Position numbers and translations under genes: made by a program. Below are positions 9,214 to 32,167 of a stretch of 64,000 nucleotides of DNA, one piece after another. Under the pieces are notes generated by a model. The model was not told the DNA's origin. It was given only the letters and a program-made list of their open reading frames with translations, and made no database searches. The stretch's first letter is position 1. Each line of letters opens with the position of its first letter. Origin of the DNA: Desulfurobacterium sp. TC5-1 (GTDB taxonomy: Bacteria; Aquificota; Aquificia; Desulfurobacteriales; Desulfurobacteriaceae); contig NZ_ATXC01000001.1 of NCBI RefSeq assembly GCF_000421485.1, forward strand, positions 923,087 to 987,086, written 5' to 3'.

Positions 9214-9248
9214 GACCGCCTCCTGTAGTTGTAATCAGTTATCGTTTA

Positions 9249-9277
9249 ATATTATAGTTTACAGGTATCTTTTTCAA
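9249..9277 (-). promoter_or_regulatory. probable leuA promoter
   Basis: On the minus strand TTGAAA (9272-9277) precedes TAATAT (9249-9254) by 17 bases. An overlapping TATAAT at 9251-9256 gives 15-base spacing. No leader peptide or T-box was recognised in the short 5' UTR. Confidence 0.55.
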
Positions 9278-9339
9278 GGAACATAAGTTAAGGTGATAGA
9301 ATAAAGCACAATTTATCTATGTAAGGAGGCAGTTAACCG

Positions 9340-10002
9340 GTGGAAGCACAGGAAACAATTTTAAAAGCTTTGATAGAGGGAAACAGCAACTGGGTTAATT
9401 CCCGCGATAAATCCTACTTTGAACCGTTTATAGAGTGCCAGCATCCGGTAATAACAATGGTAAACTGCTCAGACGCAAGAGTCCACGCAACAATATTTTT
9501 CGAAGATCCAACAGACAAAATTTTTCTCATAACAAACATCGGCAATCAGATTGCACCATCAAGAGGTTCAATAGATTTTGGCATCTACAACCTGAAAACA
9601 CCTATCCTTCTGATATTGGGACATACCCACTGCGGTGCCGTAAAGGCAGCATTAAGCAACTATTCAGACGAACCGATAAACATTAAAAACACCCTTGACC
9701 ATCTCCACATACCTCTTTCAACGGTGAAAAGAAGCGATAACTTTGAAAAGATGTGGCTTGAAGGTGTTGAAAAAAACGTTGACTACCAGGTATCAGAAGC
9801 CATGAAAATGTACGGTCACATCGTAGAAAGTGGAAAGTTAACAATCATAGGTGCCGTTTATGACTTTACAAACGCATACAGAAAAGGCTCTGGCAGGGTG
9901 ATTATAAGAAATATCAACGGCGAAAACGACAGAAACCACATCAAAAATCATCCAATACTTAAAAACCTACCGGAAAAGATAAAAGAAAAAGCTTTCCTGT
10001 GA
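9340..10002 (+). CDS. beta-class carbonic anhydrase
   Basis: It interconverts CO2 and bicarbonate with zinc. The 220-residue protein has the zinc ligands Cys43, His95 and Cys98 (motifs NCSDAR and GHTHCGA) and the Asp45-Arg47 dyad of beta carbonic anhydrases. No signal peptide is present, so it is cytoplasmic. GTG 9340 follows AAGGAGG at good spacing. In an organism using the reductive TCA cycle it would supply CO2 or bicarbonate to carboxylases, which is inference. It is a single gene on the + strand, facing a convergent gene 3 bp away. Confidence 0.9.
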   Translation: MEAQETILKALIEGNSNWVNSRDKSYFEPFIECQHPVITMVNCSDARVHATIFFEDPTDKIFLITNIGNQIAPSRGSIDFGIYNLKTPILLILGHTHCGAVKAALSNYSDEPINIKNTLDHLHIPLSTVKRSDNFEKMWLEGVEKNVDYQVSEAMKMYGHIVESGKLTIIGAVYDFTNAYRKGSGRVIIRNINGENDRNHIKNHPILKNLPEKIKEKAFL

Positions 10003-10005
10003 ACA

Positions 10006-10893
10006 TTATACAGAGATGTTTATTCTGCCTGAAAGTTTTAACCTTACGGTCTCTATCTGACTTTTATCAGGCGGTCTTTCCAATCTGTAAGAGACAGCAA
10101 CGGGAATAAACCCTGCAGAAAGCAGCTTATTCTTTAACTGTTCATCAAGAAGCTTAAGTTTATTTAAAATCCTCTCATCCTCTGTTAAAAAGTCAACAGA
10201 AACTTCATTATTTATAACAAAAAGAGAGACAAATACAGAGATGCCTTTCCTGTTAATTTCAATCTCCACCTTAACCCCGTCTTCCTCTTTTTCAAAGTAA
10301 ACATCTATGTCAGTATCTTTAATTTTGATAGGGAAAAGAACGACATCTCCGACAGGCAGAAAGTAAAAAGCCATAATGGCAAGAAGTAGCTTTTTATAAT
10401 CTTCTTCTGAAAGTTTTCCCCGTGAAGAAGCGACAAGCTCTTTAGCGGCGGCAATCAATTTAAAAATCGTTTCGGATGAAAAGAGAGAAGAGAGAAAGTT
10501 TGCAAAAAACTTATCATCAAAAGTCCCGGCATTCCAGACTTCAGGGTAGTGTTTCTTTAAATATATAGAAACGATTTTTTCAAACGAATCGGCATCAAGA
10601 AAAGGTAGAAGCGATTTCAGAATGAACTTCTGCGCCCACTCAGGATCAATCTCTACAAGCTTTAGCTCAAGCTTCGGCGACAAGGACTTTATGATAAAAG
10701 TAAGAATCTGCCCCGGTTCAAACTCTTCATCAACGTCAACCTCAGCAACAATTACTCTGTTTCCAACTAAAATCTTTGCCTTTCCATCTTCCGTATATCC
10801 GAGAAATTTCAGTTTTAATTTTTTTCCTTTTAACTCATCGGTAGAATCACCCTTCCTCTCTCCCTGAATGACAGAAGAGAGAAGCTTCTCCAT
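10006..10893 (-). CDS. FliK-like protein (flagellar hook-length control-like)
   Basis: The 295 residues from ATG 10893 include an N-terminal beta domain (GKKLKLKFLGY...KILVGNRVIVAEV...EPGQILTFIIKSL) and a C-terminal domain (ISVFVSLFVINNEVSVDFLTEDERILNKL...LLSAGF). This pattern resembles hook-length control proteins. Similarity is judged by eye, so the call is tentative. No other flagellar gene is adjacent, although flgNKL lie 45 kb away. The frame stays open for 33 codons upstream to the stop of the cysteine synthase gene, without ATG, GTG or TTG. The true start may therefore be non-canonical (see findings). Confidence 0.45.
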   Translation of the reverse strand: MEKLLSSVIQGERKGDSTDELKGKKLKLKFLGYTEDGKAKILVGNRVIVAEVDVDEEFEPGQILTFIIKSLSPKLELKLVEIDPEWAQKFILKSLLPFLDADSFEKIVSIYLKKHYPEVWNAGTFDDKFFANFLSSLFSSETIFKLIAAAKELVASSRGKLSEEDYKKLLLAIMAFYFLPVGDVVLFPIKIKDTDIDVYFEKEEDGVKVEIEINRKGISVFVSLFVINNEVSVDFLTEDERILNKLKLLDEQLKNKLLSAGFIPVAVSYRLERPPDKSQIETVRLKLSGRINISV

Positions 10894-10992
10894 ATCTCTC
10901 CGTGAAAAATCCTGAAGCTTTGCTGGAAGATTCCTGCTTATTGCTTCAGCAGGGATAATACCTTCTATTTTTCTTATCTCTATAACAGCCCC

Positions 10993-11904
10993 CTATCCAA
11001 ACAGTTCAGTTGAAAGGTAACGCTCGCCGGTATCAGGAAAAACTGTAACAACAGGTGTTTTAAGCTTTCCGTCTTTAAAGGCTTTTAAAACAGCGGCGAC
11101 ATTTGCACCGGAAGAGATACCGGCAAGTATTCCAAACTCTCCGGCAAGTTTTTCACAGTAATACTTTGCCTCATCAAAAGTTACAGTGATAGGGAAAGAA
11201 ACAACAGACATATCAAGTGTTTCAGGAATAAAACCGGCACCTATTCCCTGAATCTTATGGATGCCGGGTTTGCTTCCGGATATAACAGCGGATTCTTCAG
11301 GTTCTACCGCAACAATAACGGCATCAGGATTTACCTCTTTAAACCTTCTGCCAACACCCGTTAACGTGCCGCCTGTTCCGACTCCGGCTACAAAAGAACC
11401 GGGAATCTCTCCAAGCTGTTCCAGTATCTCAACAGCAGTACCTTCATAGTGAGCTTTTATATTTGCAGGATTTTTAAACTGCCGGGCAGGAAAGTATAAA
11501 TCGGAATTTTCAGATATTCGCCTTTCAACCTCTCTAATAGCACCGGGGATTCCAAGAGAAGCAGGCGTTAAAATAAGTTCAGCACCGTAAGCCTTCAGTA
11601 TCTTCTTTCTCTCCTCACTCATGTTTTCCGGCATAACAATCGTGCAGCCGTAACCTTTTGCAGCACAGACAAGGGCAAGACCTATTCCCGTGTTTCCGCT
11701 TGTAGCCTCTATTACTCTCTTTCCCTTCTTTAAAAGCCCTCTTTTCTCTGCATCCTCAACAATCGAAAGGGCAACTCTGTCCTTTATACTGCCGCCGGGA
11801 TTAAACATTTCAAGTTTTGCGTAAAAGGTCACACCTTCAACGGTAAGTTCAAAAAGAGGCGTATTTCCAATAAGTTCAAGGATACTTCTTGACAATATAC
11901 CCAT
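10993..11904 (-). CDS. cysteine synthase (O-acetylserine sulfhydrylase)
   Basis: This PLP enzyme forms cysteine from O-acetylserine and sulfide. Starting at ATG 11904 it is 303 residues, a normal length. The N-terminus ILELIGNTPL, the PLP-lysine motif GGSIKDR (Lys41), the substrate loop EATSGNTGIGLA and the phosphate-binding GVGTGGTLTGVGR are all present. These fit both CysK and CysM. The KIQGIGAGFIPETLD segment is typical of CysK-type enzymes, so the paralogue is not assigned. GAGGG lies 8 bases before the ATG. It overlaps the upstream Trm10-like gene by 29 bp and is probably translationally coupled to it. Confidence 0.9.
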   Translation of the reverse strand: MGILSRSILELIGNTPLFELTVEGVTFYAKLEMFNPGGSIKDRVALSIVEDAEKRGLLKKGKRVIEATSGNTGIGLALVCAAKGYGCTIVMPENMSEERKKILKAYGAELILTPASLGIPGAIREVERRISENSDLYFPARQFKNPANIKAHYEGTAVEILEQLGEIPGSFVAGVGTGGTLTGVGRRFKEVNPDAVIVAVEPEESAVISGSKPGIHKIQGIGAGFIPETLDMSVVSFPITVTFDEAKYYCEKLAGEFGILAGISSGANVAAVLKAFKDGKLKTPVVTVFPDTGERYLSTELFG

Positions 11905-12970
11905 CAATTAAACCCTCTATCTGCAAAATTTTTCTGCCTTTTACAGCTTCTTCTTTTATTATTTTATCAAGAATTTCATCTTTTACGACTGTAAATCCGT
12001 TTACGTGCTTTGAAGCCTTGCGAAAGTGGAAATCTTTAAGGGAAAATTCCTCAGCAAGTTGATTGTAAAAAGAGAGCGGTAAACATTTATGAACGCCGTT
12101 TACATCTTTAATTCTTTTTAAATTAGCGGTAACGGATTCTCTCGCAATCCTTAACTTTGCCTGTCTGGTAAGATTCCGTCTTATAACCTCCTCAAGGGAA
12201 TCGGTGCACGTGAGAAAATCACACAACAGCTTTGTAAGTTCGTTGATTCTGTCTGAAACCGGAAGTATTGAACCTCTGTAAGCAATTTTTCTATGAACAG
12301 CCCCACGGTAAATTTCAGCGGTAGCACCTTTTAACCGCTCACCGTGATCAACAATACCTCCAAAAACAAGGACAGTATCTTCATCAACATCGTCCCGCGT
12401 CAGCGTCTCATCAGCATTCGGATCAAGGACGACAATACGCTTTTTTAAAGGTTTAGAACAAATCTCAAACGGAACATCCGGCGTAAAGAACTCTTTTAGA
12501 TAAGGCACACAGTAGCCTTCACTATCTATAAGATAAAAGTTCTCAGGCGTAAAGTAATCTTTAACAACACCGAACATAATCTCAAGCTGATTAAAAAGAC
12601 TCCTCTTCTCCTTATCAATCAATGAAGGGAAAAATCGCATGTCAACAGCAATGTCCGGATACGAAAAATCCTCTCTTGATATGATAGAAACACCTTTAAA
12701 ACTACCACTTGACTTTAGAATAACTGCATCAGCTATAGCGCTACCAGTTGAAAAGAGCAGGTTTACACCACCAACACTATCAAGAATTCTACCGGGAAGA
12801 ATCTCACCAAATTCTTCCTTTCCAACAACCTTAAACCTGCCCGTAGCAACAAGGTAGGCAAGTCTGTTAAAAAGGTCGCCTCTTCCCGGCTTCCTCAAGT
12901 ATTTGACATTCTCAATACCTGCACGTTTTAAGCGCTCCGCAAAAATCTCCTTTGCTCTCTTAAAAATCAT
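11876..12970 (-). CDS. Trm10-type (SPOUT) tRNA methyltransferase-like protein
   Basis: About 364 residues. The C-terminal half reads IVVLDPNADETLTRDD, then VLVFGGIVDHGE, then IAYRGSILPVSDRINEL. It matches by eye the Trm10 SPOUT fold, especially archaeal tRNA purine-9 N1-methyltransferases (LDP-x-A-D, GGIVD and PDRIN motifs). Such enzymes methylate N1 of G9 or A9 using SAM. The N-terminal half is unrecognised and may bind tRNA. ATG 12970 is chosen because AAGGAG precedes it and it leaves about 90 bp for promoters to the divergent argJ. A GTG at 13018 is an alternative start. The assignment needs a profile search. Confidence 0.55.
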   Translation of the reverse strand: MIFKRAKEIFAERLKRAGIENVKYLRKPGRGDLFNRLAYLVATGRFKVVGKEEFGEILPGRILDSVGGVNLLFSTGSAIADAVILKSSGSFKGVSIISREDFSYPDIAVDMRFFPSLIDKEKRSLFNQLEIMFGVVKDYFTPENFYLIDSEGYCVPYLKEFFTPDVPFEICSKPLKKRIVVLDPNADETLTRDDVDEDTVLVFGGIVDHGERLKGATAEIYRGAVHRKIAYRGSILPVSDRINELTKLLCDFLTCTDSLEEVIRRNLTRQAKLRIARESVTANLKRIKDVNGVHKCLPLSFYNQLAEEFSLKDFHFRKASKHVNGFTVVKDEILDKIIKEEAVKGRKILQIEGLIDGYIVKKYP

Positions 12971-13060
12971 CTCTCTCCTTCTTATGCTTTCTGTTTTCCT
13001 TAAATTTAAAGCCAGCACTCATAAATGCTAAAATGAGAAAAAAATAGCGAGAGGTTGCAG

Positions 13061-14239
13061 GTGAAAGGAATAGCTGATGTAAAAGGCTTTTTATGTGGAA
13101 CTGGAAAGGGCAACATAAAGAACACCCTCAAACCATCAAATAAAAAAGATATTCTGGTGATAGTTTCCGAAAAACCGGCAACGGCAGCGGCGGTCTTTAC
13201 AACAAACGATGTTAAGGCTGCACCGGTTAAACTGTCTCAAAAATTGGTTAAAGCCTATGAAAAAGTCCACGGTATCGTTGCAAACAGCGGAAATGCAAAT
13301 GCCTGCACTGGCGAAAGGGGAATGAAAGACGCTGAAACAATGGCAAAAATCTGCCAGAACCTTACGGGAAAATCACCGTTTTTAGTCGCATCAACAGGTG
13401 TAATAGGCGAATTTCTACCAATGGACAGAATGGAAAAAGGGATAGAAGAAGCGGTAGAAAACTTGGGAAAGGCAACCTCTAAAGAGGCTGCCCAGGCTAT
13501 AATGACAACCGATACATTCCCGAAAACCGCCTTCTTTGAAGGAAAAGGTTTTACCATCGGCGGAATAGCAAAAGGGGCAGGTATGATAGACCCTGCAATG
13601 GCAACGATGCTTTCGTTCATCGCTACAGACGCAGAGATAGACAAAAAATTGCTTGAAAAAGCGTTAAGAGAGGCAAACGAAATAAGCTTTAACGCAATAA
13701 CCGTTGATGGTGACATGAGCACCAACGATACTGTATTCTTCCTTGCAAACGGTACATCAGGAAAGAGAATAACGGAAGAAAATTACGGCGAATTTTTAGA
13801 TGGTTTGAAAGAAGTGATGAAATCCCTTGCCTACCAGATTGTAAAAGACGGAGAAGGCGCAACAAAAGTGGTGAGGATTAAAGTCATCGGTGCAAGGACA
13901 AAAGAAGAAGCAAGGAAAGTGGCAAGGAAAATTGCCCTTTCACCTTTAGTAAAAACGGCTGTTTTTGGCTGCGACCCTAACTGGGGAAGAATCATAGCAG
14001 CAGCCGGCAGCGCAGGCGTAAAATTAGTGGAAGAGAAAACCGAACTTAAAATCGGCGGTTACCTCCTCTTTAAAGGGACAAAGACAGACTACGACGAAAC
14101 CGTCGTGCATAAGTACATGAAAAAAAGTGAAGAGATTGTGATAGAAGTTAACCTTAACCTTGGCAGCGCATTTTTTGAATACTTAACCTGCGACTTTAGC
14201 TATGAATATGTGAAAATAAACGCTGAATACAGGACTTAA
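13061..14239 (+). CDS. argJ: bifunctional ornithine acetyltransferase / N-acetylglutamate synthase
   Basis: ArgJ transfers acetyl from N-acetylornithine to glutamate in the cyclic arginine pathway and may also use acetyl-CoA. The protein is about 392 residues. It has the autocleavage site GAGMIDPAMATMLSF, where the Thr of ATML becomes the N-terminal nucleophile of the beta chain. Other signatures are GIVANSGNANACTG and FGCDPNWGRI near the C-terminus. The ATMLSF context fits the family. GTG 13061 is preferred over TTG 13055 because GAGAGG lies 6 bases upstream. It is followed 1 bp later by coaX, so they share a transcript. Confidence 0.93.
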   Translation: MKGIADVKGFLCGTGKGNIKNTLKPSNKKDILVIVSEKPATAAAVFTTNDVKAAPVKLSQKLVKAYEKVHGIVANSGNANACTGERGMKDAETMAKICQNLTGKSPFLVASTGVIGEFLPMDRMEKGIEEAVENLGKATSKEAAQAIMTTDTFPKTAFFEGKGFTIGGIAKGAGMIDPAMATMLSFIATDAEIDKKLLEKALREANEISFNAITVDGDMSTNDTVFFLANGTSGKRITEENYGEFLDGLKEVMKSLAYQIVKDGEGATKVVRIKVIGARTKEEARKVARKIALSPLVKTAVFGCDPNWGRIIAAAGSAGVKLVEEKTELKIGGYLLFKGTKTDYDETVVHKYMKKSEEIVIEVNLNLGSAFFEYLTCDFSYEYVKINAEYRT

Positions 14240-14240
14240 A

Positions 14241-14915
14241 ATGGTTGCCCTGATAGATGCAGGAAACAGTTTTGTAAAAGTTGTTTTCTGGAACGGCAAA
14301 ACGTTTGAAAATGCAATTCAGATACCGACAGGGGAAGTCAGGAAATTTTTTCCTGTAAAAGGTGAATCGGCAGTTATCTCAAGCGTAGTTCCGTCACTTA
14401 ATGAAACTTTTAAGAAAGCCTTCAAAAAAACAACTTTCGTAAACGCCCGGATACCGCTTCCTGTAAAGATAGACTACAAAAACCCTGAAAGGTTGGGCGC
14501 TGACAGAATAGCCCTCGCCTGCGGAATTTTAGACTACGAAAACAGCGGCATAGTTGTGTCTGCAGGAACAACAGTAGTTGTTGATATAGTTATTGAAAAA
14601 ACTTTTATCGGCGGAATCATTCTGCCAGGAGTGAAAGCAATCCATAGGGCGCTGAATCTTGTTACAGAACAGCTTCCAGAAGTGGAAAACAGATTTATAG
14701 ACAAACTCCCTGGAAAGTCAACAGCAGAATGCATAAAAGTGGGAACAGCCCTCGCACTAAAAGGTGCCGTTAAAGAGGTAATGGAAAAGTATTCAGGCTT
14801 ACCGGTCGTATTTACAGGCGGCTACGGAAATATTTTAAAAGAAATGATTGGAAAAGGAACCTATGATCCGTTCCTGATTTTTAAGGGAATGGTGAAAATT
14901 GTGAAGGAAAAATAA
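14241..14915 (+). CDS. coaX: type III pantothenate kinase
   Basis: It phosphorylates pantothenate, the first step from pantothenate to coenzyme A. The 224-residue protein has the ASKHA-fold phosphate motif IDAGNSFVKVVFWNG at the N-terminus, PERLGADRIALA in the middle and SAGTTVVVDIV as the second nucleotide motif. The length is slightly short for CoaX (usually about 250). Type III kinases need a monovalent cation and are not inhibited by CoA, as known for the family. panB, earlier in the same pathway, lies about 11 kb away. ATG 14241 follows argJ directly. Confidence 0.88.
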   Translation: MVALIDAGNSFVKVVFWNGKTFENAIQIPTGEVRKFFPVKGESAVISSVVPSLNETFKKAFKKTTFVNARIPLPVKIDYKNPERLGADRIALACGILDYENSGIVVSAGTTVVVDIVIEKTFIGGIILPGVKAIHRALNLVTEQLPEVENRFIDKLPGKSTAECIKVGTALALKGAVKEVMEKYSGLPVVFTGGYGNILKEMIGKGTYDPFLIFKGMVKIVKEK

Positions 14916-14939
14916 AAAGAGGGGGCGTATGCCCCCTCT
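14911..14939 (-). terminator. groESL operon terminator (probably bidirectional)
   Basis: A 9 bp perfect stem, AGAGGGGGC/GCCCCCTCT (14918-14926, 14931-14939), has a GTAT loop. On the minus strand it runs into TTTTTATT, ending groEL transcription. It also closes coaX on the + strand with a weaker tract. Confidence 0.85.
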
Positions 14940-14957
14940 TCTACCTTAAATCTGTCA

Positions 14958-16601
14958 TTAATATTCAGGCATTGGAGGTACGTTCTTCTCTTCTTTCTCA
15001 GGAATTTCAGTAATTGTGGCCTCTGTTGTGAGGAGAAGGCCGGCAACTGAAGCAGCGTTTTGAAGAGCAACCCTCTCAACCTTGGTTGGGTCAATTACAC
15101 CTGCTGCTACAAGGTCTTCATATTCACCTTTTCTTGCGTTGAATCCGTAGTTTATGCCTTTCTCGTTGATAAGCTCTTTAACCTTCTCAACAACAACCTG
15201 TCCGGCGTAACCTGCGTTCTCAGCAATCTGCCTCAATGGTGCTTCAACAGCTTTCTTAACTATCTCAACACCATGCTTTCTGTCAATTTCGTTAGCTTCG
15301 TCAAGCTCTTTTATAAGCTCATCAAGCTTCCTTGCAGCAGCAAGGAGTGCTGTTCCACCACCGGGAACAATACCCTCTTCTACTGCAGCTCTTGTTGCGT
15401 GAAGTGCATCTTCAACCCTTGCCTTCTTCTCTTTAAGTTCAGCTTCAGTAGCAGCACCTACCTTGATGATAGCTACACCACCTGCAAGCTTGGCAAGTCT
15501 TTCCTGAAGCTTCTCTTTATCGTACTCAGAAGTTGCCTTTTCAAGCTCTGCCTTAATCTGCTTAATTCTTGCTTCAATCTCTTCCGGCTTACCTTTACCG
15601 CCGATAATAGTCGTGTGCTCTTTGTCAACAACAACCTTGTCAGCCTGACCAAGCATATCAAGTGTAACGTTTTCAAGCTTGATGCCAAGGTCTTCAAGGA
15701 TAGCCTGTCCACCTGTAAGGATAGCAATATCCTGAAGCATAGCCTTTCTTCTTTCACCAAAACCAGGTGCTTTAACCGCACATACGCTTAATGTTCCACG
15801 GAGCTTGTTAACAACGAGTGTTGCCAGAGCTTCACCTTCCACATCTTCAGCGATGATGAGAAGTGGTCTTCCCTCTCTTGCAACAGATTCAAGAACTGGA
15901 AGAAGCTCTCTTATGTTTGAAATCTTCTTACCGTAGATGAGAATGTAAGGATTCTCAAGAACAGCTTCCATCTTGTCAGGATCTGTTACGAAGTATGGTG
16001 AGAGATAACCTCTGTCAAACTGCATACCCTCAACAACTTTAAGTTCTGTCTTGAGCCCTTTAGCCTCTTCAACAGTGATAACGCCTTCCTTGCCTACTTT
16101 ATCCATAGCTTCAGCGATGAGCTCGCCAATCTCTTTATCGTAGTTTGCAGAAATTGTTGCAACCTGAGCAATCTGCTCCTTTGTCTCAACAGGCTTTGAT
16201 ATTGCCTTAAGCTCTTCTACAATCTTCTCAACAGCAGCGTCAACACCTCTTTTAAGCTCAATGGCATTATCGCCGGCAGTTACAAACTTGAGACCGTCGT
16301 TAAAGATAGCCTGAGCAAGAACAGTAGCTGTTGTCGTTCCGTCACCGGCCTTGTCAGCTGTCTTTTGAGCAACCTCTTTAACAAGCTGAGCACCAATGTT
16401 CTCAATTGGATCCACAAGCTCAATCTCTTTTGCAACAGTAACACCGTCTTTTGTAACAAGTGGTGAACCGAACTTCCTTTCAATAACAACGTTTCTACCA
16501 CCAGGACCCATTGTTGCCTTTACAGCGTTGGCAAGCTTATCAACACCTATCTTAACTTTCTGCCTTGCTTCATCAGCAAATCTAATATCTTTTCCTGCCA
16601 T
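14958..16601 (-). CDS. groEL: chaperonin GroEL (60 kDa)
   Basis: A cytoplasmic chaperonin that folds proteins in a double ring with GroES using ATP. The 547-residue protein has the ATP-binding [12 protein letters not shown], the equatorial GPGGRNVVI and the late-domain [14 protein letters not shown] 16601 ([10 protein letters not shown]) is chosen over an in-frame start 9 bases upstream because GGAGGTGA precedes it. The C-terminus is [13 protein letters not shown] instead of the usual Gly-Gly-Met repeats, so the chamber-floor tail differs from that of E. coli. It is downstream of groES in an operon under a perfect CIRCE element. Confidence 0.97.
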
Positions 16602-17050: not shown

Positions 17051-17449
17051 TCAGGGAGTTTGATAACAATGAATAAAACCGTTTACATGTCCGTAAGCAG
17101 TATCGATATCACAAACGATTTTTATTCCGTGAACGTGGAAAGTGCAGTTAGAATTGGCAATTTTAATGTAAGAGTTTGCCGCAGAAGAATTTGAAGCATT
17201 ACTAAAATCAATTACCAGAGTACAGGTATCACTGGAATCATAAACTCTACATACCTTTGTAAGTGTTCCGTTATTGGCAAACTGAGCCATAAGCTCTCCG
17301 GCACAGGTAATCAAGTCTGACTGCACTCTTGAAACAACAGCTTTTTCTTTATAATTAACAAATGTTTGAACAGCCACCAGTGAAAGTATAGAAATAATGG
17401 AAATAACAATAAGAAGTTCTATTAATGAAAAAGCCCCCCTTTTGTTCAT
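17051..17449 (-). CDS. type IV pilin-like protein (second, minor)
   Basis: The 132-residue protein starts MNKRGAFSLIELLIVISII, a class III prepilin signal with the conserved Glu at +5 of the mature chain. Cleavage would fall after Ala rather than the usual Gly. The globular part has several Cys (TCAGELM, KVCRVY, DTCTL, NCTF, IVCDI, IHCYQ) that could form disulfides. ATG 17449 is preferred to an upstream in-frame start because GGGGAGAA precedes it. It lies behind the terminator that follows the first pilin gene, so it is probably expressed at a lower level by read-through. It is a likely minor pilin or pseudopilin. Confidence 0.8.
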   Translation of the reverse strand: MNKRGAFSLIELLIVISIISILSLVAVQTFVNYKEKAVVSRVQSDLITCAGELMAQFANNGTLTKVCRVYDSSDTCTLVIDFSNASNSSAANSYIKIANSNCTFHVHGIKIVCDIDTAYGHVNGFIHCYQTP

Positions 17450-17484
17450 CCAATTCTCCCCTGCATAATTATATACACATAAAT

Positions 17485-17517
17485 TAAATAAAACCGCGCC
17501 CGGGCAATCCGGACGCG
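17485..17517 (-). terminator. terminator between the two pilin genes
   Basis: CGCGCCCGG (17495-17503) pairs with CCGGACGCG (17509-17517), with one G-U pair on the minus strand, followed there by GTTTTATTT. It ends most transcripts of the first pilin gene. Confidence 0.7.
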
Positions 17518-17545
17518 CAGATATCAAATTTGACAGGAAAATTTA

Positions 17546-17896
17546 TTATTGTGGCGTGCAAGTAATGGTATTTGTATTACTGTCAACGGAACAAGAAACA
17601 TTATGACCTTTCACTTTAAAAGTTGTTGGACTAATACCTGTAAGTGTACCGGTAGAATTTAATGTAATAGTAGCGTTTGTATTGTTATCATCTTTCACTG
17701 GGCAGATATAAGTTGTATTGCCCGTATCGGCAAACTGAGCCAAGGCTGCAGTAACGCAGGAAGCCAGCGTTGATTGAACATTTGCCGCAGCCGCCTTTCT
17801 TACATAGTTGGTGTACTGCGGAATAGCAATCGCGGCAAGGATTGCAATAATTGCCACGACGATGAGAAGTTCTACCAGCGTAAACGCCTTTCTCAT
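17546..17896 (-). CDS. type IV pilin (probable major pilin)
   Basis: The 116-residue protein starts [31 protein letters not shown]-like, a classic type IVa N-terminus. Phe is at +1, Glu at +5, and the mature helix carries the usual Ala/Pro22 pattern. The residue before cleavage is Ala rather than Gly. The globular domain is small and Thr/Asn-rich, with Cys in ASCV, ICPV, VSCSV and ITCTP that could form two disulfides. AAGGAGG precedes the ATG. A sigma-54 type promoter lies about 65 bp upstream and a terminator directly downstream, consistent with a strongly expressed single-gene transcript. It resembles short pilins of the Geobacter type. Confidence 0.88.
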
Positions 17897-22619: not shown

Positions 22620-23609
22620 TTAATCAGCCCTGTTAGAAGGCATTGTGGTTTCTACAGGAACAATTTTATTTTTCTCGGGTTTAAGAATTTGAATCCTCTG
22701 ATTCAGCCAGTCAGTTACTATAACATTTCCCCTTTCGTCAACCGCAACATCCGTAGGATAATTAAACCAGCCGGGTGACCACCCTCTTCCACCAAATTCA
22801 AAAAGAAACTTTCCGGACATATCGTATGCAAGCACAGCGTGCCTCATTGGGTCACAAACATAGATACGCCTGTTATCCTCATCAACTGCAACGGCAGAAG
22901 GCTGGCTTAACTGACCGAAATTTGCACCGTGAGTTCCAAATTTAAACAGAAATGCACCATCCTTATCAAAAACGTAAACCTGACCAAAATCAAGTGCAAC
23001 AAGATAAACACGGCCAAGAGAGTCAACACCAACATTGGAAACTATAGACCCTACCCTTTCACCTTTAACTTTTATTTCCGGATATAGAAATCTTGTGAAA
23101 TTTCCGTTTTGATTAAAGCAGGCAACAAAATCTTTTCCAGCACCGGTAACGTATATTTCACCCGTAACAGGATTAACTGCCACATGAGTCGGAATAAATT
23201 TTGAAGCTCCCTTAAAGCCTTTTATGGGAATTATTTTTTTCAATATAAGAGACGGGGAAAGAACATAGATCTTCCTTTCATTAGAAGAAATAAAATAAAA
23301 CTTGCCCTTTTTATCCACAAAAAGATCAACAGGATCCTTTATTCCGTACCCTTTCCCCAACGCCATAAAAGGAAAGAAATCCGGTGTATAGAAAATAACC
23401 TTGGACTTTCCAGGTTCAACAACATAAAGCTGCCGGGATCTTCTGTCATAAAAGATGGAACCGGGATAGGTCAAAGCCTTCCCGGTCTCATCTATGTTAA
23501 TGATGCCGAGCACTTTTGTTGAAACAACTTCCTGCGCCCTTGAGACAGCAGGAAAAGTGTAAAGCAAACCAACCAAAAAGGCAGCTATTAACCTTTTGTT
23601 GTATGACAT
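22620..23609 (-). CDS. secreted NHL-repeat beta-propeller protein
   Basis: About 329 residues with a signal peptide (MSYNKRLIAAFLVGLLYTF, cleavage near SRA-QE). It carries about six NHL blades, for example PSAVAVDEDNRRIYVCDP and PTDVAVDERGNVIVTDWLNQR. These make a six-bladed propeller used for protein contacts outside the cytoplasm. ATG 23609 is favoured because it gives a standard signal peptide. GTG codons at 23618 and 23624 are possible. It overlaps the end of the hexaheme cytochrome gene by 22 bp, so the two are translationally coupled. NHL genes also accompany outer-surface cytochrome genes in Geobacter, suggesting a role in cytochrome export or assembly. Confidence 0.8.
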   Translation of the reverse strand: MSYNKRLIAAFLVGLLYTFPAVSRAQEVVSTKVLGIINIDETGKALTYPGSIFYDRRSRQLYVVEPGKSKVIFYTPDFFPFMALGKGYGIKDPVDLFVDKKGKFYFISSNERKIYVLSPSLILKKIIPIKGFKGASKFIPTHVAVNPVTGEIYVTGAGKDFVACFNQNGNFTRFLYPEIKVKGERVGSIVSNVGVDSLGRVYLVALDFGQVYVFDKDGAFLFKFGTHGANFGQLSQPSAVAVDEDNRRIYVCDPMRHAVLAYDMSGKFLFEFGGRGWSPGWFNYPTDVAVDERGNVIVTDWLNQRIQILKPEKNKIVPVETTMPSNRAD

Positions 23610-24940
23610 ACCATGCACCCGCACTCATTCATAAGAGTAGCGTTCGTAGTAGCACTATCAGCAATACAGGTTGAGTAGTCCCATCTGAGAAGGTCGTAGT
23701 ACGGTGAGCCGTGAGCCCTGTGACAGGACACACATGTAACTATGGCATCATCACCCGTCCAGGAAATTGTATTGTCCGTGAGAAGTGTATAGTTATCCGT
23801 TGCAACAGGAGCAAACATACTGTAAGGAGATGATGTTCCGTTACCGCCGTTGTAGTATCTATATTCTGGAAGGGTGTTGCCATCAACTCCTATCGTAGCA
23901 GGTCCTGCATTTGAAAGGTCAAAGTCAGTCGGGTGCCTGAGCCATGGCGTCCCTATGGGTGAATCAATAGTATTGGGATCTCTTGAAACTTCAGCACCGC
24001 TGTGGAACATACCGTGACATTCTGCACATAGGTATGAAATAGTATGTGGATTAGCCGTTGTGGGATCTTCTGATGTTCTATCTACACCGTAATAGACGTT
24101 GTGGGAAAGTCCATTGGCATCTGGAACTGCTGCAAACTCATAATAGTTATGCTCATCCCCGGCAATACCGGCAAGGAATCTGTAGCTGTTACCTATTGTT
24201 CCCGTGCCGTTAACCCATCCATACATGTTTGAGTGGTGGGCGCCGTTAACCCCTGCAAAACTATCAAGAGTAGCTGCATTGTGTCTGCCGTGGCATCCGT
24301 AAACACCGGCACATGTAAGCTGATGCGTCCATGTAACTTCTCCGTTAGCAACTTTAGAACCAAAGATAGCATCTGTAAAGTGTGTGGCGTTTGAATCCCA
24401 TCCAGGCGGTGTAAGACCGATGTTAGGATCAGGAGGCATGCCTAAATCAGCTACATTGTGAGCACATCTCGGATCTTGAGTCCTTCCCCAGTAGAAGCTT
24501 CCGCCAGCAAGAGCTCTGTTCTCTCCCCACGTTGCAGTAGAATAGTTACCCGTTGTATAGGCATCACCGGTTGCAGGATACTCTGGCTGAGTTGTTGAAT
24601 CAACGTAAGGCCAGAGATGGTCACCGTAATAAAGAGTAGCTGCCTTTGGTGCTTCACCGTAAGTATGGCAGTATTGACAGTCACCGCGCAGGAGGTTTCT
24701 GATAGGCGTCGTTGCATTTGTCGAATTAAGGTTGGCAAACGTCATAGCCACAACGTTCGTCGAACTCACAGTACCCGTAGCATAGGTAGTATTACTGTCC
24801 CACGGATATACACCGTGCTGAGAGTTGTGCATTGTGTGACAGTTCACACAGGGACCGACAACAGCACTGGCATTTTGATATAAGATAAAACCAGAACAGG
24901 CCAGTGCTGCAAGCGTCCCTGCCAGCAGCTTATTCCTCAT
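23588..24940 (-). CDS. OmcS-like hexaheme c-type cytochrome
   Basis: 450 residues with a signal peptide (MRNKLLAGTLAALACSGFIL, cleavage near ASA-VV). Heme motifs lie at residues 31-35 (CVNCH), 88-92 (CQYCH), 305-309 (CAECH), 403-407 (CVSCH) and 442-446 (CMVCH), plus an atypical CX5CH at 210-217. Order, spacing and local sequence (CxxCHTMHN, YRFLAG, LRHPT, CVSCHRAHGS and a final CH near the C-terminus) parallel Geobacter OmcS, which has six hemes in 432 residues and forms extracellular filaments. OmcS uses a His before heme 1 to bridge subunits; none precedes Cys31 here, so polymerisation is unproven. ATG 24940 follows AGGAGG. It is coupled to the NHL gene. Confidence 0.8.
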   Translation of the reverse strand: MRNKLLAGTLAALACSGFILYQNASAVVGPCVNCHTMHNSQHGVYPWDSNTTYATGTVSSTNVVAMTFANLNSTNATTPIRNLLRGDCQYCHTYGEAPKAATLYYGDHLWPYVDSTTQPEYPATGDAYTTGNYSTATWGENRALAGGSFYWGRTQDPRCAHNVADLGMPPDPNIGLTPPGWDSNATHFTDAIFGSKVANGEVTWTHQLTCAGVYGCHGRHNAATLDSFAGVNGAHHSNMYGWVNGTGTIGNSYRFLAGIAGDEHNYYEFAAVPDANGLSHNVYYGVDRTSEDPTTANPHTISYLCAECHGMFHSGAEVSRDPNTIDSPIGTPWLRHPTDFDLSNAGPATIGVDGNTLPEYRYYNGGNGTSSPYSMFAPVATDNYTLLTDNTISWTGDDAIVTCVSCHRAHGSPYYDLLRWDYSTCIADSATTNATLMNECGCMVCHTTKG

Positions 24941-26736: not shown

Positions 26737-28587
26737 TTATAGACCTTCAGGCCTCTTAACATCATAGAGAACATCATCCATAGGATGCCTGTAGAGAGGC
26801 ATTGCAAGTCTCTTCTCGTCAAGAATGTGGCCTATAAATCCGATAGACCTTCCAAGAACGAAGAACGCGTTAAAGGCACCTGCATTGATAAGCTCGTCAA
26901 TTTCAGAATCTGAGTATCCAAGGTTTCTGAACATATCAACAAGGAGAACACCTATTGTTCCATCAACGTTAAGGATAAGGTTCTCTTTCTTGGCAGTCGT
27001 AACCTTTTCTACTTCAAGAGCATAGTCTAAAAGCTCTGTTGATGGGAACTTTTCCTTTGCAAAGTTTTTGAGAAGTTCAACCCTCTTGTCAGGGTTCTTT
27101 GTTGATTTAATTCTGTGACCGATACCTGGAATAGGGATCTTCTCAACATTCTTCATATAGTCAACAAACTCAAACGGATCCATACCCTGTTCTTTAGCAA
27201 ACTTAAAGTACTTGGCAGCTCCGTCAATAGCACCACCGAACCTTGGTCCTATCGTAAGGATACCTGTTGCAAGAGCTGACATGAGATCTTTTCCTGCTCT
27301 TGCAGTAACCTTTGCGTTGTGAGCACCTGAAACACAGGGACCGTGATCCGCAACAACTTTAATAACCATATCTATGAACTTAGAAGCCCAGTCAGGGAAC
27401 TTCCTCTTAAACCAGAGAAGACCTATAACGTCAGCGATTGAGAATTCTCTCTCAATAACTTCTGAAATTGGAAGTCCACAGTACGTTGCCTCTTCGCCTC
27501 TGTCGTCGGATATAGTACAGATAAAGTTGGTAGGCTTTCTAACCTTTCCGGCCTTAACAAGTTTTGCGTAATCTTCAGGAAGTTCTGGAACTTCAGGTTC
27601 TTCAATCTCCCCAATTAGACCCTTTGACTTAAGATCTTCGTAAACACCCCTTATAAGTTCAGGGAATTCGTCAAAAGAGTTAGGAACAAGCGCACCTGCA
27701 GCCCTTAAAGCAGCATTTTTAGCATCTGCTGTTTCTCTATCAGCACCGGCTTTTGCACCTGCGTGACCAAACTGAACTTCTCCGGCAAAGTGCTTTGAAA
27801 TAGTTCCAATACACCATGCAATGAGAGGCTTGGTAATAAGACCATCCTTAAGAGCCTCAACAACTCTGTATTCAAGGTCTCCACCAAGTTCTCCAAGCAT
27901 AATCATAAATTTAACCTGTGGATTCTTCTGAAATCTGAGAAGATGATCGAGGAAATCAGACCCTGGAAATCTGTCACCACCAATAGCGATACCTTCAACA
28001 ATACCGTCAGCATTCCTTGCAATTACATTTGAAAGTTCGTTGAAGAGTCCACCGGAACGGGTAACAAGGCCAACAGAACCGGGTCTGTGAAGCTTTGATT
28101 TAACGATATTCTCAATCGTTCCGCCGGCGTTTCCAATCCTAAATGCTCCAGCGGCAATACCACCAACAGTAGCAGGGCCAATGATCACTTTTCCTGCCTT
28201 TTTCGCCTTAAGAGCCATATCCCTTGCAAATCTTTCAGGAATACCTTCAGCAGTAATAGCTATTGTTTTTATTGTTGGAATGTTGATAGCCTCAAGTGTA
28301 ACGTTGTAGGCAGTTCTGAAAGAAGCAAAGTTAACCAGAACATCAGCTTCCGGATGCTTTTCTGCTGCCTCTGCTGTTGACTTGTAGATAGGTATCATAA
28401 TCTCTTTTGTGCCGTGGAAGAACTTTTCAAATTTCCTGTTCTGAGTAGGCGCAACGATTGCAACGATACTCGGGCTCCTTCCAACAATAAAATCGTAATC
28501 GAGCATCCTTTGAATAGCATTTCTGTTTAAGTTCCAGAAAATAGCCTTCGTATTTCTATCAAAAAGAATGTAATCGGGTCTTGCCAT
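26737..28587 (-). CDS. aclA: ATP-citrate lyase, large (alpha) subunit
   Basis: With AclB it cleaves citrate to acetyl-CoA and oxaloacetate using ATP and CoA, the key step of the reductive TCA cycle. The 616-residue protein has a succinyl-CoA-synthetase-alpha-like half with the phospho-His motif VQFGHAGAKAG (His275). A citrate-synthase-like half has GPCVSGAHNAKVTARAGKD and IPGIGHRIKSTKNPD. The fusion of both halves marks two-subunit ATP-citrate lyase rather than separate citryl-CoA synthetase and lyase. AAGGAGGG precedes the ATG. It lies 13 bp after aclB in an icd-aclB-aclA operon. Use of ATP-citrate lyase fits Desulfurobacteriaceae better than Aquificaceae. Confidence 0.95.
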   Translation of the reverse strand: MARPDYILFDRNTKAIFWNLNRNAIQRMLDYDFIVGRSPSIVAIVAPTQNRKFEKFFHGTKEIMIPIYKSTAEAAEKHPEADVLVNFASFRTAYNVTLEAINIPTIKTIAITAEGIPERFARDMALKAKKAGKVIIGPATVGGIAAGAFRIGNAGGTIENIVKSKLHRPGSVGLVTRSGGLFNELSNVIARNADGIVEGIAIGGDRFPGSDFLDHLLRFQKNPQVKFMIMLGELGGDLEYRVVEALKDGLITKPLIAWCIGTISKHFAGEVQFGHAGAKAGADRETADAKNAALRAAGALVPNSFDEFPELIRGVYEDLKSKGLIGEIEEPEVPELPEDYAKLVKAGKVRKPTNFICTISDDRGEEATYCGLPISEVIEREFSIADVIGLLWFKRKFPDWASKFIDMVIKVVADHGPCVSGAHNAKVTARAGKDLMSALATGILTIGPRFGGAIDGAAKYFKFAKEQGMDPFEFVDYMKNVEKIPIPGIGHRIKSTKNPDKRVELLKNFAKEKFPSTELLDYALEVEKVTTAKKENLILNVDGTIGVLLVDMFRNLGYSDSEIDELINAGAFNAFFVLGRSIGFIGHILDEKRLAMPLYRHPMDDVLYDVKRPEGL

Positions 28588-28600
28588 TCTTAATCCCTCC

Positions 28601-29896
28601 TTATTTATTGTCGCTTAAAGCTTTGCTAACTATTGCTGTAATGTGAGTTTCAGGACCGTAAACCTCTATTGGAAGGCCGAGACCTTCAGCCGCTTCTTTT
28701 ATCTGCTTAAGTCCAAGCTCATAATTTGGACCACCACGTCTAACGTAAATCCTGACACCAACATCTCTAAGCTTATCAGCATACTCCTTCATAGCGTCTA
28801 TGATTCCGGCAAACGTCTTGGCAACGTCTGTAAAGTTAGCAATAGCACCACCTATGATGAGAATCTTCGGTCTTCCCTGTGGATCTTTATTTCTCGTCAT
28901 AAGATCAAAAACAGTTTTGACGTACTCCCTCGTTTCAGCCCTTGAAGGGTTACCTGAATACTCACCGTAGTTGGCAAGCTCATCAACATAGCCAAGGTCT
29001 GCAATTGTATCGGCATAAACAACAGAAGCGCCACCACCGGCAACCAATGTCCAGATTCTACCTTCAGGGTTGAGAATTGTCAGTTTAAGAGAAGCACCTG
29101 ACTTTTCGTCCATATCTTTAATGTACTTCTCTTCAGGTGTAAGCTCCCTGCCAAATCCGCTCGGGAACTCTATCTCTCCCCACTTTCTTCCAGCAACAAA
29201 CTGAGCCGTATCATCAAGCCTTGCCACAAAGTCAAGAGGATAAACCTGGTTTCCTGTCATAGCAAGAGGGTTGATTTCAAGGTAGGTAAAGTGAAGGTCT
29301 TTAAAGAAGTTATAAAGCTTCTGAACAAAGTTTGCATACTTATCCTTATCTTTTATTTCCGCAGGAACATTTTCTCTTATAAGCTTTTTAATTTCCTCAT
29401 CCGCTGCAAGTGCAGGAATGAAAACCTCCTTCACCTTATCCCAGTTTTCCTCAACATCAATACCACCGAAGGCAGACATGAAGATTTTGTCACCTTCCCT
29501 TTCCATCGTCATAGCAATGTAGTACTCCTCATCATGAGGAACGAACGGCTCAACGATAAAGTGTGTGAGGTAACCTGTCTGCCCTTTAATAGTAACAGGC
29601 TCAGACATCTTTTCCTTTATCCACTTTTTAACATCTTCCCACTTAACATCACCTGGCTTTTCAATCTTATAAAGGACAAGACCGAGTTTTCCTCTCTTAC
29701 CGAAAAGCATGTCAGGCTTTGCGACAAGCGGCATGTGAAGAAGCCACGGATGACGTTCTGGAAGTTTATCAAGGTCTGTTTCCGGTGTTATAAGAACAGA
29801 TTTGAAATCGTATTTAAAGTCACCGTCAAAATACTCAGACCAGTGGTTAAAAAGCATTCTTTTGGCATCGTATTCTCTAATTCCTCTCTGTGCCAT
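28601..29896 (-). CDS. aclB: ATP-citrate lyase, small (beta) subunit
   Basis: The 431-residue partner of AclA carries the ATP-grasp and CoA-binding parts related to succinyl-CoA synthetase beta. Visible features are the N-terminal GIREYDAKRMLFNHW, the phosphate-binding TLVAGGGASVVYADTI near residue 285 and the CoA-side KILIIGGAIANFTDVAKTF. Sequence order and length fit AclB of green sulfur bacteria. AAGGAGG precedes the ATG. It lies 60 bp after icd, with a GC-rich hairpin between them that may reduce or balance transcription. Confidence 0.94.
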   Translation of the reverse strand: MAQRGIREYDAKRMLFNHWSEYFDGDFKYDFKSVLITPETDLDKLPERHPWLLHMPLVAKPDMLFGKRGKLGLVLYKIEKPGDVKWEDVKKWIKEKMSEPVTIKGQTGYLTHFIVEPFVPHDEEYYIAMTMEREGDKIFMSAFGGIDVEENWDKVKEVFIPALAADEEIKKLIRENVPAEIKDKDKYANFVQKLYNFFKDLHFTYLEINPLAMTGNQVYPLDFVARLDDTAQFVAGRKWGEIEFPSGFGRELTPEEKYIKDMDEKSGASLKLTILNPEGRIWTLVAGGGASVVYADTIADLGYVDELANYGEYSGNPSRAETREYVKTVFDLMTRNKDPQGRPKILIIGGAIANFTDVAKTFAGIIDAMKEYADKLRDVGVRIYVRRGGPNYELGLKQIKEAAEGLGLPIEVYGPETHITAIVSKALSDNK

Positions 29897-29929
29897 CTAT
29901 TTCCTCCTTAACAGGTTGAAATTTAAAGG

Positions 29930-29949
29930 GCACGGCTTAGAAGCCGTGC
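29930..29949 (-). terminator. hairpin between icd and aclB (possible attenuator or processing site)
   Basis: GCACGGCTT pairs with AAGCCGTGC (29930-29938, 29941-29949). On the minus strand it is followed only by CCTTTAAATTT, so it is a weak terminator at best. It could be a processing or stabilising stem. Confidence 0.4.
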
Positions 29950-29956
29950 GAAATTT

Positions 29957-32167
29957 TTAAATGGAATCGATAATTTCGTTGAATGTTTTACTCGGCCTCA
30001 TAGCCGCTTCCGCCTTTTCGTCATCAGGAAGATAGTAACCGCCAATATCCTTTGGTGAACCTTCCGTTGCCCTTATCTCTTCAAGAATCTTCTCTTCATT
30101 TTCTTTAAGAGCTTTGGCTATCGGGGCAAATTTCTCGGCCAACTCTTTATCCTCTGTCTGGTTTGCAAGAGCTTCCGCCCAGTAAAGAGCAAGGTAGAAG
30201 TGGCTTCCCCTTGTATCAAGCTCCCCGACCTTTCTCTTAGGCGTTCTGTCATTTTCAAGATACTTACCTACAGCTTCGGAAAGCGTTTCAGCAAGAACCT
30301 TAATCTTTTCATCACCGGCTTGCTTGTAAGCAAGCTTCAGAGATTCAACAAATGCAAGGTATTCACCAAGAGAATCCCACCTTAAGTGCCCCTCTTTAAC
30401 AAACTGCTGAACGTGCTTGGGTGCCGAACCGCCCGCACCTGTTTCAAATACACCACCACCATTAATAAGAGGAACTATTGAAAGACTTCTTGCACTTGTT
30501 CCAACTTCAATAATCGGGAACAGGTCTGTAAGGTAATCTCTGAGAACGTTTCCTGTAACGGCAATCGTATTTAGACCCTGTCTGAATCTCTTGAGCGTGT
30601 ACTTCATAGCTTCTGGTGGAGCCATTATGTGCCATTCTATACCTGTAAGGTCATACTTTTTAAGCTCTTCCCTAACCTTTCTAATAAGTTGTCTGTCGTG
30701 AGCTCTGTAAGCGTCAAGCCAGAATACGATAGGCTCTCCACTTTCTTTAGCTCTGTTTACGGCAAGTTTAACCCAATCTTCAATAGCTATCTTTTTGGTA
30801 ACACAACTTCTGTAGATATCGCCGGCGTTAACCTCGTGTTCTATAAGAACGTTTCCATCTTCATCAACAACTCTCATAATACCGTCAGCCGGAGGGAAGA
30901 ATGTCTTGTCGTGGCTACCATACTCTTCAGCCTTCATTGCCATGAGACCCACGTTGGCCACGCTTCCAATTGTTTTAGGATCAAACTGTCCGTTAAGCTT
31001 TATATCGTCAACAATCTCTCTGTACATTGTTGCGTAGCTTCTATCCGGAACTGTAATAACGCAGTCGTCAACCTCACCGGAAGGTCCCCAACCCTGAATA
31101 CCGTTCTTTATAACGGCAGGAATAGAAGCATCGATAATAACATCGTTAGGTCTGTGGAGGTTTGTTATTCCCTTATCAGAATCAACCATGTAAAGCCTTG
31201 GCTGCTTAGCGTAAATCTCTTCTATTTTTTTCTTAATAGCCTCTTGTTTTTCCTCCGGAAGTTTTGAAAGCTTCTTCTCAAGGTCAACAAGTCCGTTGTT
31301 AGGATTAAAACCTATCTCTTCAAGCTCCCTGCCAAATTCTTCGAAAAGCTCCTTAAAGTAAACTCTGATTGCATCACCAAACATTACAGGATCGGAAACT
31401 TTCATCATAGTAGCTTTTACGTGAAGGGAGAAGAGAATATCGTTATACTTAGCATCCTCAATCACTTCTGAGTAAAATTCTCTAAGCTTTTCTCTGTTCA
31501 TGTAAGTAGCATCAACAACATCACCTTCACCAAGCTCTATCTCTTTCATAACGGTAACGTTGCCGTTCTTATCAACGAACTCATATCGGATTTTTGTATC
31601 TTTCTGAAGTGTTACAGATTTTTCGTTCTCATAGAAGTCTCCACCTTTCATGTGAGCAACGTAACTCTTTGAATTTTCAGGAACAGGCTTCATCCAATTG
31701 CGCTTTTCTGCAGCTTTTCTGGCATAATCCTTAACAGGCTTTGCAATTCTCCTGTCTGAGTTACCCTGCCTGAGAACCGGGTTAACAACGCTACCAAGAC
31801 ACTTTGCGTAAACTTCCCTTATTTTCTTCTCTTCCTCTGTTTTTGGATCTTCAGGAAAATCAGGAATATCATAACCTTTTGACTGAAGCTCTTTTATAGC
31901 ATCAACAAGCTGAGGAATTGAAGCTGAAATGTTTGGAAGCTTCATAATGTTGGCTTCCGGTTTCCATACAAGCTCGCCAAGATAAGCAAGATCATCAGGT
32001 GCCTTTCCCCAGGCAGCAAGAACTCTTCCACCAAGAGAAATATCTCTCAGCTCAATCTCTACACCGGCATCCTTTGTAAAAGCCCTGACAATTGGAAGCA
32101 GGGAGTAAGTTGCAAGTGCCGGCGCCTCGTCAACTTTTGTCCAGACGATGGTAGCCTTTTTAGCCAT
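29957..32167 (-). CDS. icd: NADP-dependent isocitrate dehydrogenase, monomeric
   Basis: In this setting it carboxylates 2-oxoglutarate to isocitrate with NADPH, a CO2-fixing step of the reductive TCA cycle. The 736-residue length and motifs (KATIVWTKVDEAPALATYSLLPI, then VLRQGNSDRRIAKPVK, then STSARSLSIVPLINGGGVFETGAGGSAPKHV) identify the monomeric type, about twice the size of common IDH subunits. A monomeric enzyme is also reported for the reductive cycle of Chlorobium. AGGAGG precedes the ATG. It is the first gene of the icd-aclB-aclA operon and has a strong promoter at 32255-32283. Confidence 0.95.
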   Translation of the reverse strand: MAKKATIVWTKVDEAPALATYSLLPIVRAFTKDAGVEIELRDISLGGRVLAAWGKAPDDLAYLGELVWKPEANIMKLPNISASIPQLVDAIKELQSKGYDIPDFPEDPKTEEEKKIREVYAKCLGSVVNPVLRQGNSDRRIAKPVKDYARKAAEKRNWMKPVPENSKSYVAHMKGGDFYENEKSVTLQKDTKIRYEFVDKNGNVTVMKEIELGEGDVVDATYMNREKLREFYSEVIEDAKYNDILFSLHVKATMMKVSDPVMFGDAIRVYFKELFEEFGRELEEIGFNPNNGLVDLEKKLSKLPEEKQEAIKKKIEEIYAKQPRLYMVDSDKGITNLHRPNDVIIDASIPAVIKNGIQGWGPSGEVDDCVITVPDRSYATMYREIVDDIKLNGQFDPKTIGSVANVGLMAMKAEEYGSHDKTFFPPADGIMRVVDEDGNVLIEHEVNAGDIYRSCVTKKIAIEDWVKLAVNRAKESGEPIVFWLDAYRAHDRQLIRKVREELKKYDLTGIEWHIMAPPEAMKYTLKRFRQGLNTIAVTGNVLRDYLTDLFPIIEVGTSARSLSIVPLINGGGVFETGAGGSAPKHVQQFVKEGHLRWDSLGEYLAFVESLKLAYKQAGDEKIKVLAETLSEAVGKYLENDRTPKRKVGELDTRGSHFYLALYWAEALANQTEDKELAEKFAPIAKALKENEEKILEEIRATEGSPKDIGGYYLPDDEKAEAAMRPSKTFNEIIDSI

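Follow-up and report, generated by a model that had tools for sequence, protein, structure and literature searches.

The cytochrome and NHL genes

The window, i.e. the whole analysed stretch of 64,000 nucleotides, belongs to a host genome of 1.65 Mb. At the locus, a gene for a multiheme cytochrome and a gene for a secreted NHL-repeat protein overlap on the reverse strand, and the locus consists of these two genes only (Table 1). For the cytochrome, the open reading frame at 24940-23588(-) and an apparent Sec signal peptide, assigned by eye (MRNK, a hydrophobic stretch, then ASA/VV), agree with the preliminary description of a secreted protein of 450 residues. The NHL protein matched PF01436 with E 9.2e-14 and the NHL domains of TRIM71 and Thin in the PDB at about 1e-40.

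Table 1 Features of the gene pair (positions in the window) and of a related block at another locus of the genome (positions within that locus)
Feature	Position	Strand	Basis
OmcS-superfamily hexaheme cytochrome, 450 aa	23588..24940	(-)	ORF; profile match, hhalign, Foldseek
Sec signal peptide (predicted), residues 1-26, ASA/VVGPC, no lipobox	24863..24940	(-)	By eye; ASAVVG kept in orthologs
Heme 1 site C31VNCH35	24836..24850	(-)	97% conserved (77-row alignment)
His38 (CHTMH), matching OmcS His16; candidate for ligating heme 5 of the neighbouring subunit	24827..24829	(-)	Alignment to 6ef8; 96% conserved
Heme 2 site C88QYCH92	24665..24679	(-)	97% conserved (77-row alignment)
His161 (HN), distal-ligand candidate, common to OmcS GHN	24458..24460	(-)	Invariant
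Heme 3 site C210AGVYGCH217, expanded CX5CH	24290..24313	(-)	99-100% conserved; 3-residue insertion relative to OmcS CSSCH
His235-His236, distal-ligand candidates (OmcS: DPH)	24233..24238	(-)	Invariant
His280 (HNxY), distal-ligand candidate, absent from OmcS	24101..24103	(-)	Invariant in 44-sequence profile
Heme 4 site C305AECH309	24014..24028	(-)	100% conserved (77-row alignment)
His313 (CHxxFH), distal-ligand candidate	24002..24004	(-)	Invariant in 44-sequence profile
His336 (LRHPT), distal-ligand candidate common to OmcS	23933..23935	(-)	Invariant
Heme 5 site C403VSCH407 (OmcS CLSCH332)	23720..23734	(-)	96% conserved; alignment to OmcS
His410 (HRAH), distal-ligand candidate common to OmcS	23711..23713	(-)	Invariant in 44-sequence and 16 OmcS-type sets
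Heme 6 site C442MVCH446, four residues before the C-terminus	23603..23617	(-)	95-96% conserved
Secreted NHL-repeat beta-propeller protein, 329 aa from ATG (longest ORF to 23624)	22620..23609	(-)	PF01436, PDB NHL domains
22-bp overlap of cytochrome and NHL genes	23588..23609	(-)	ORF overlap kept in L081, L082, L006
Reduced OmcS/Oet-type block	L075 (G000:C1:1069000-1088000) 8105-16437		Two lipoproteins, PPIase, 6-heme, NHL, OmcS-like, octaheme

The overlap of 22 bp with a secreted NHL propeller, as first described, holds for an NHL start at ATG 23609. With GTG 23624 as start it amounts to 37 bp, and this overlap of the reading frames is present in all three other genus members. Translational coupling of cytochrome and NHL gene is likely. 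Within the genus, purifying selection acts on both genes. In the three other genomes the cytochrome shows 83-91% identity, with dN of 0.05-0.13, dS of 1-2.7 and dN/dS of approximately 0.05-0.07. Low dN/dS and the maintenance of the pair and its overlap indicate that both are real, selected genes. Across the loci of relatives, an NHL gene directly adjoined 27 of 102 family genes, compared with 38 of 598 genes outside the family (Fisher p 1.7e-8; the loci are not fully independent).

The cytochrome contains ten N-X-S/T sites versus 5.8 in shuffled sequences, with 51 of 1000 shuffles as high; this weak signal possibly reflects glycosylation. Two type IV pilin-like genes are located at window positions 17051-17896 (-), about 6 kb from the cytochrome. 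Genes at window 26737-32167, read as encoding ATP-citrate lyase and an isocitrate dehydrogenase of the monomeric type, fit autotrophy by the reductive TCA cycle; the preliminary description had assumed an autotroph.

Heme attachment sites

The protein had been described as a hexaheme cytochrome. Six attachment sites were found, but just five of them are CXXCH, and heme 3 is represented by the expanded motif CX5CH. In the family alignment of 77 rows (76 family members and OmcS) C210 is conserved to 100%, C216 to 99% and H217 to 100%. Among the 44 sequences of the family profile C31, C34, H35, C88, C91, H92, H161, C216, H235, H236, R254 and L256 are invariant, as are C305, C308, H309, H313, H336, P337, C403, C406, H407, H410 and C442. 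Profile-profile alignment paired the region of C210 with the leading Cys of the OmcS heme 3 motif and GCH with SCH, the insertion lying inside CXXCH. The deep-branching hexahemes L068 and L069 show an unexpanded CXXCH at this position, with a His-His pair after it; heptaheme relatives have CX2CH, CX3CH or CX4CH. Judged by these three comparisons, a real heme site at CX5CH is more likely than a disulfide.

A protein with five hemes, in which C210 and C216 form a disulfide, CX5CH stays empty and the heme chain is broken, would not be a wire. The AlphaFold2 (AF2) model, in which CX5CH appears as a beta hairpin, could be read in this way, and no use of CX5CH as heme site was found in the literature searched. 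We regard this reading as quite improbable. OmcS, L068 and L069 have CXXCH at the corresponding site and the heptahemes CX2-5CH, and both Cys and the His are conserved almost without exception. Expanded motifs are moreover known to bear heme, namely in OmcZ with a loop of 14 residues (PMC9473688) and in MccA with CX15CH (PMC7096707). If it does form part of a heme chain, the CX5CH site would put to a clear test how much stretching a heme spacing motif tolerates. In the superfamily the heme count varies around the heme 3 position; the heptaheme relatives (L030 9151-10338, L047 7977-9119 and others) carry an extra heme near heme 3, with spacings from CX2CH to CX5CH.

Relationship to OmcS

With the single sequence as query, phmmer detected no match in the PDB at E<=1. 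By this search the kinship to OmcS noted by eye would have seemed unsupported, and profiles were needed. Homologous loci of the cytochrome numbered 69, mostly from Desulfobulbaceae, Desulfuromonadales and Nitrospirota. Profile A1 comprised 44 family proteins, A2 93 rows and A3 16 OmcS-type proteins of Desulfuromonadia. Against the PDB, A1 gave OmcS (6ef8) as top match with E 2.3e-26, followed by NrfA with E 5e-4. A2 matched OmcS with E 6.7e-28, and A3 matched OmcS with E 1.6e-148 and nothing else. The alignment of the window family with the 16 OmcS-type proteins by hhalign reached probability 100 and E 1.1e-44 over 299 columns. Homology of the cytochrome to OmcS is thus near certain, and the likeness in number and order of hemes and in local segments was confirmed by the profiles. 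The segments CVNCHTMHN, YRFLAG, LRHPT, CVSCHRAHGS and the C-terminal CMVCHTTKG are present and represent conserved family columns rather than chance similarity.

Placement in a soluble periplasmic family by a profile search had been named as a refutation; the search favours OmcS instead. Soluble periplasmic cytochromes (c3/c7, NrfA/NrfB) were rejected as assignment, the best match being elsewhere. Pfam and NCBIfam searches yielded generic doubled-CXXCH matches at threshold only.

The AF2 model from the 93-row alignment had pLDDT 69.7 and pTM 0.77. Among 350,542 PDB chains Foldseek matched it to OmcS (6ef8) only (E 2.7e-4, prob 0.97). As to the structural check on the monomer, OmcS is therefore the sole PDB match, but the TM-score to OmcS was only 0.36 with an rmsd of 14.9, so the same subunit arrangement as in OmcS is unproven by the model. 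An earlier model from 44 rows was poorer (pLDDT 60.7, Foldseek E 6.6e-3, TM 0.24). The viral fold library contained no match to the AF2 model and the plasmid collection none to the cytochrome.

Direct equivalence to OmcS did not stand. In the tree the OmcS-type proteins were split from the CX5CH and heptaheme branches with SH-aLRT 100. Within one Desulfuromonadia order the scores were bimodal: the CX5CH family mostly reached E 1e-36 to 1e-132, the OmcS type 1e-12 to 1e-33. OmcS sensu stricto was rejected for the window cytochrome, which lies outside this clade, has a heme 3 site other than CXXCH (CxSCHDPH) and is without His2 (FHxGG). A GSU2501 type was also rejected for the CX5CH family, since in Geobacter-type genomes the hexahemes encoded immediately upstream of the block are CXXCH proteins. 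Within the OmcS superfamily the cytochrome belongs to a sister branch, with CX5CH as the heme 3 site. The OmcS query for genome searches agrees with the PDB sequence in the parts aligned within residues 7-348; the conclusions rest on profiles A1 and A3. The best match to this query in the searched genomes was only 72% identical, hence the type species is apparently outside the genome sample.

Histidine ligands

The preliminary description assumed that OmcS bridges its subunits by a His before heme 1, and saw an objection to direct equivalence in the lack of a His ahead of Cys31. Of the 12 His ligands in an OmcS subunit, 11 belong to that subunit itself, and the neighbour provides the remaining one, which binds heme 5 (PMC6584659; PMC7096707). 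By alignment to 6ef8 the last His of CHTMH has number 16 and the His of CLSCH at heme 5 number 332. We take His16 to be the bridging residue, paired with His332. Wang et al. reportedly assigned the inter-subunit ligand to His16 in 2019. The missing His is a true difference, as His2 (FHxGG) precedes heme 1 in all 16 OmcS-type proteins and is absent in the window cytochrome, but the consequence drawn for bridging was wrong. The objection is mostly misplaced.

Six non-motif His are invariant in the 16 OmcS-type proteins, those of FH (2), TMH (16), GHN, DPH, HP and RAH. The ligand columns TMH, GHN, DPH/GAHH, HP and RAH are common to OmcS and the window family. In the latter eight non-motif His are conserved for six hemes; hence all six hemes could, by this count, be ligated inside one subunit.

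Wholly internal ligation would suit a monomeric hexaheme carrier of the OmcS superfamily, secreted or periplasmic, which would not polymerise and would relay electrons between the outer membrane and quinone-linked oxidoreductases. The eight conserved His suffice for the six distal positions, and His2, invariant in OmcS, is absent. Furthermore, OmcS alone is known to form a wire, and its close homologs OmcT, OmcJ and GSU2501 are not (PMC12977616). Against such a carrier speak the CHTMH histidine, which fits a bridging ligand and is kept at 96%, the Foldseek match to a filament protein only, and the presence in the same genome of genes syntenic with the assembly block. Although we judge a monomeric carrier unlikely, it is the most serious of the alternatives.

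Distribution and the second paralog

The cytochrome family was detected in all four genomes of the window's genus, in 0 of 18 others of its family and in 0 of 132 other genomes of the phylum, which cover 30 genera in all. The closest named relative in the genome collection is a Desulfurobacterium MAG (Aquificota), whose cytochrome is 82% identical. Both paralog clades are nested among sequences of Desulfobacterota and Nitrospirota. This nesting and the restriction to one genus of the phylum make lateral transfer probable; acquisition by the ancestor of the genus is the simplest account of the tree and the distribution.

The second paralog of the same genome (C1:1078520-1079692, locus L075) is 52% identical over residues 87-449. 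It groups inside the operon-linked clade (SH-aLRT 98), and the window type just outside (90). Its neighbourhood has the order lipoprotein of 193 aa, 472-aa protein, lipoprotein of 200 aa, PPIC-type isomerase (PF13145, E 4.7e-22), 6-heme protein, NHL, OmcS-like cytochrome and octaheme cytochrome. These genes match Desulfobulbaceae loci in the same order, the PPIase with 1e-71 to 1e-86 and the octaheme protein with about 1e-90, and most of them also match Geobacter-type OmcS loci. The slot of the 16-heme protein is occupied by a 198-aa homolog with six hemes, as in other genus members. An ortholog of the 26-heme gene was found neither in L075 nor elsewhere in the genome. The search of the own genome for an OetI barrel was empty, a weak search as barrels diverge fast. 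Except for NHL none of the block genes lies beside the window copy.

Propeller, 16-heme, 26-heme and PPIase genes were described as a core operon (PMC5539420). The block was linked to maturation and secretion of OmcS (PMC12977616, citing Shen et al. 2025), and the OmcS-like cytochromes of the cassette were proposed to form filaments in ANME partners (PMC10553843). In these papers the cluster is reported for Desulfobacterota. No report of OmcS-like cytochromes in Desulfurobacterium was found in the literature searched.

In locus L076 (G000:C2:58000-77500) a 24-heme cytochrome, NHL, a 3-heme protein, a cytochrome b-like membrane protein and a 6-heme protein are encoded in one run (8604-14720), a candidate for another electron-transfer complex with NHL partner. 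This 24-heme cytochrome, encoded on contig 2 and accompanied by an NHL gene of its own, is a candidate outer-membrane conduit in place of the 26-heme protein. Further multiheme cytochromes are encoded in L143 (5703-7310, 8 hemes), L146 (5880-7046, 12), L147 (5711-7210, 8) and L144 (5237-6016, 7); the one of L143 adjoins a NiFe hydrogenase-like operon.

The position of the window copy outside the assembly block would also suit a terminal reductase or adhesin-like cytochrome on the cell surface, which would contact the substrate while docked on a filament of another kind, be it a pilus or the second paralog, with NHL as surface scaffold. An insertion of about 18 aa after heme 1, specific for the genus in the 77-row alignment, the number of N-X-S/T sites and the two pilin-like genes point in the same direction. 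However, there is no hint of an open (His/none) heme, since the conserved His outnumber the distal positions. No binding domain is present, and the pilin genes stand on their own at a distance. Such a surface protein is therefore very unlikely.

Proposed function

On balance, we favour an OmcS-like head-to-tail filament with bridging by His38, gained laterally and with NHL as folding or export partner; its probability lies somewhat above even. Taken by itself, filament formation by the window cytochrome is likewise slightly favoured. A role in extracellular electron transfer is likely; as candidate function it is strengthened by the L075 block and by the adjacency of NHL across the family.

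In the favoured reading the cytochrome would be exported by Sec and loaded by the c-type maturation system, resulting in six bis-His hemes strung along the chain in sequence order. The NHL protein would act as co-expressed periplasmic partner for folding or export of the cytochrome, and the PPIase of the L075 block may assist. Heme 1 and His38 would be part of an N-terminal arm that docks on the next subunit and there ligates heme 5 through His38. By stacking head to tail the subunits would form an extracellular heme chain for electron traffic between the cell and a partner outside it, i.e. a mineral, elemental sulfur or another cell. As a guess, solid sulfur would be reasonable for this genus. 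AF2 modelled this arm, residues 1-57 after signal peptide removal, with low confidence. This would fit a swapped arm packing on the neighbour, a suggestive point only, as the genus-specific insertion also lowers confidence. The comparisons establish membership in the family, the six sites, the conservation of the candidate ligands, the pairing with NHL, the restriction to the genus and the synteny of the block. We infer that CX5CH carries a heme, that the protein polymerises and lies outside the cell, which way the electrons flow and what NHL does.

More tentatively, and with a probability clearly below even, the family may constitute a distinct class of nanowires with a CX5CH heme, which moved with a stripped-down block into one thermophilic genus of Aquificota. 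Building and charging of filaments could then be simpler than in Geobacter, and the filaments might reach solid sulfur or minerals at vents. If the filament reading is true, OmcS-type extracellular wiring extends by lateral transfer to an autotrophic thermophile of Aquificota, and the genus is the sole one with such wiring among 30 sampled in the phylum. The reduced gene set would show which parts are needed (PPIase, NHL, lipoproteins) and which are dispensable (26-heme, full 16-heme), and heat-stable cytochrome filaments would be a useful material. Related 'OmcS-like' genes have already been discussed in other phyla, and PMC12977616 cautions that wire formation does not follow from homology.

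Comparison with known systems

OmcS of Geobacter sulfurreducens (6ef8/6nef) forms filaments. Like the window cytochrome it is secreted, has about 400 aa, starts with CHTMHN and shows the same order of six sites. GHN, YR(F/I)L, LRHP, CLSCHRAH and a terminal CxxCH are common to both, as is little secondary structure. In contrast, the window cytochrome has CX5CH instead of CXXCH at heme 3, no His2 and the additional His280 and His235/236. It belongs to a separate clade with about 25% profile identity to OmcS.

Among other cytochromes, the filament protein OmcE (7tfs) with four hemes has a CHTxHN start and was faintly matched by the profile (E 0.005). The filaments of OmcZ (8 hemes) and the archaeal AvECN/PcECN (4 hemes) gave no sequence match to the window family. 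The weak match of NrfA pentaheme nitrite reductases is confined to the last hemes and represents ordinary multiheme resemblance.

The OmcS-like cytochrome of the oetABI cassette, a 6-heme Apc2a, was described for syntrophic sulfate reducers (PMC10553843); both the bacterial orders and the genes beside it in the operon are those of the CX5CH relatives. PPIase, 26-heme, 16-heme and NHL neighbours of these relatives are also those of the cytochromes in the propeller-16heme-26heme-PPIase operon (PMC5539420). By bacterial orders and operon neighbours, rather than by sequences, the cytochromes of both studies are probably of the same family as the CX5CH relatives. The window copy differs from these operons in that NHL is its only such neighbour, and the block of its own genome is without a 26-heme gene.

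The GSU2501/OmcT-type hexahemes and the eight-gene block for OmcS maturation (PMC12977616, citing Shen et al. 2025) compare with L075 in the order of lipoprotein, PPIase, multiheme and NHL genes. All Geobacter-type hexahemes examined have CXXCH at heme 3, unlike the window cytochrome. In contrast to L075, the Geobacter-type block includes 26-heme and 16-heme genes and a gene of about 750 aa at the place of the barrel.
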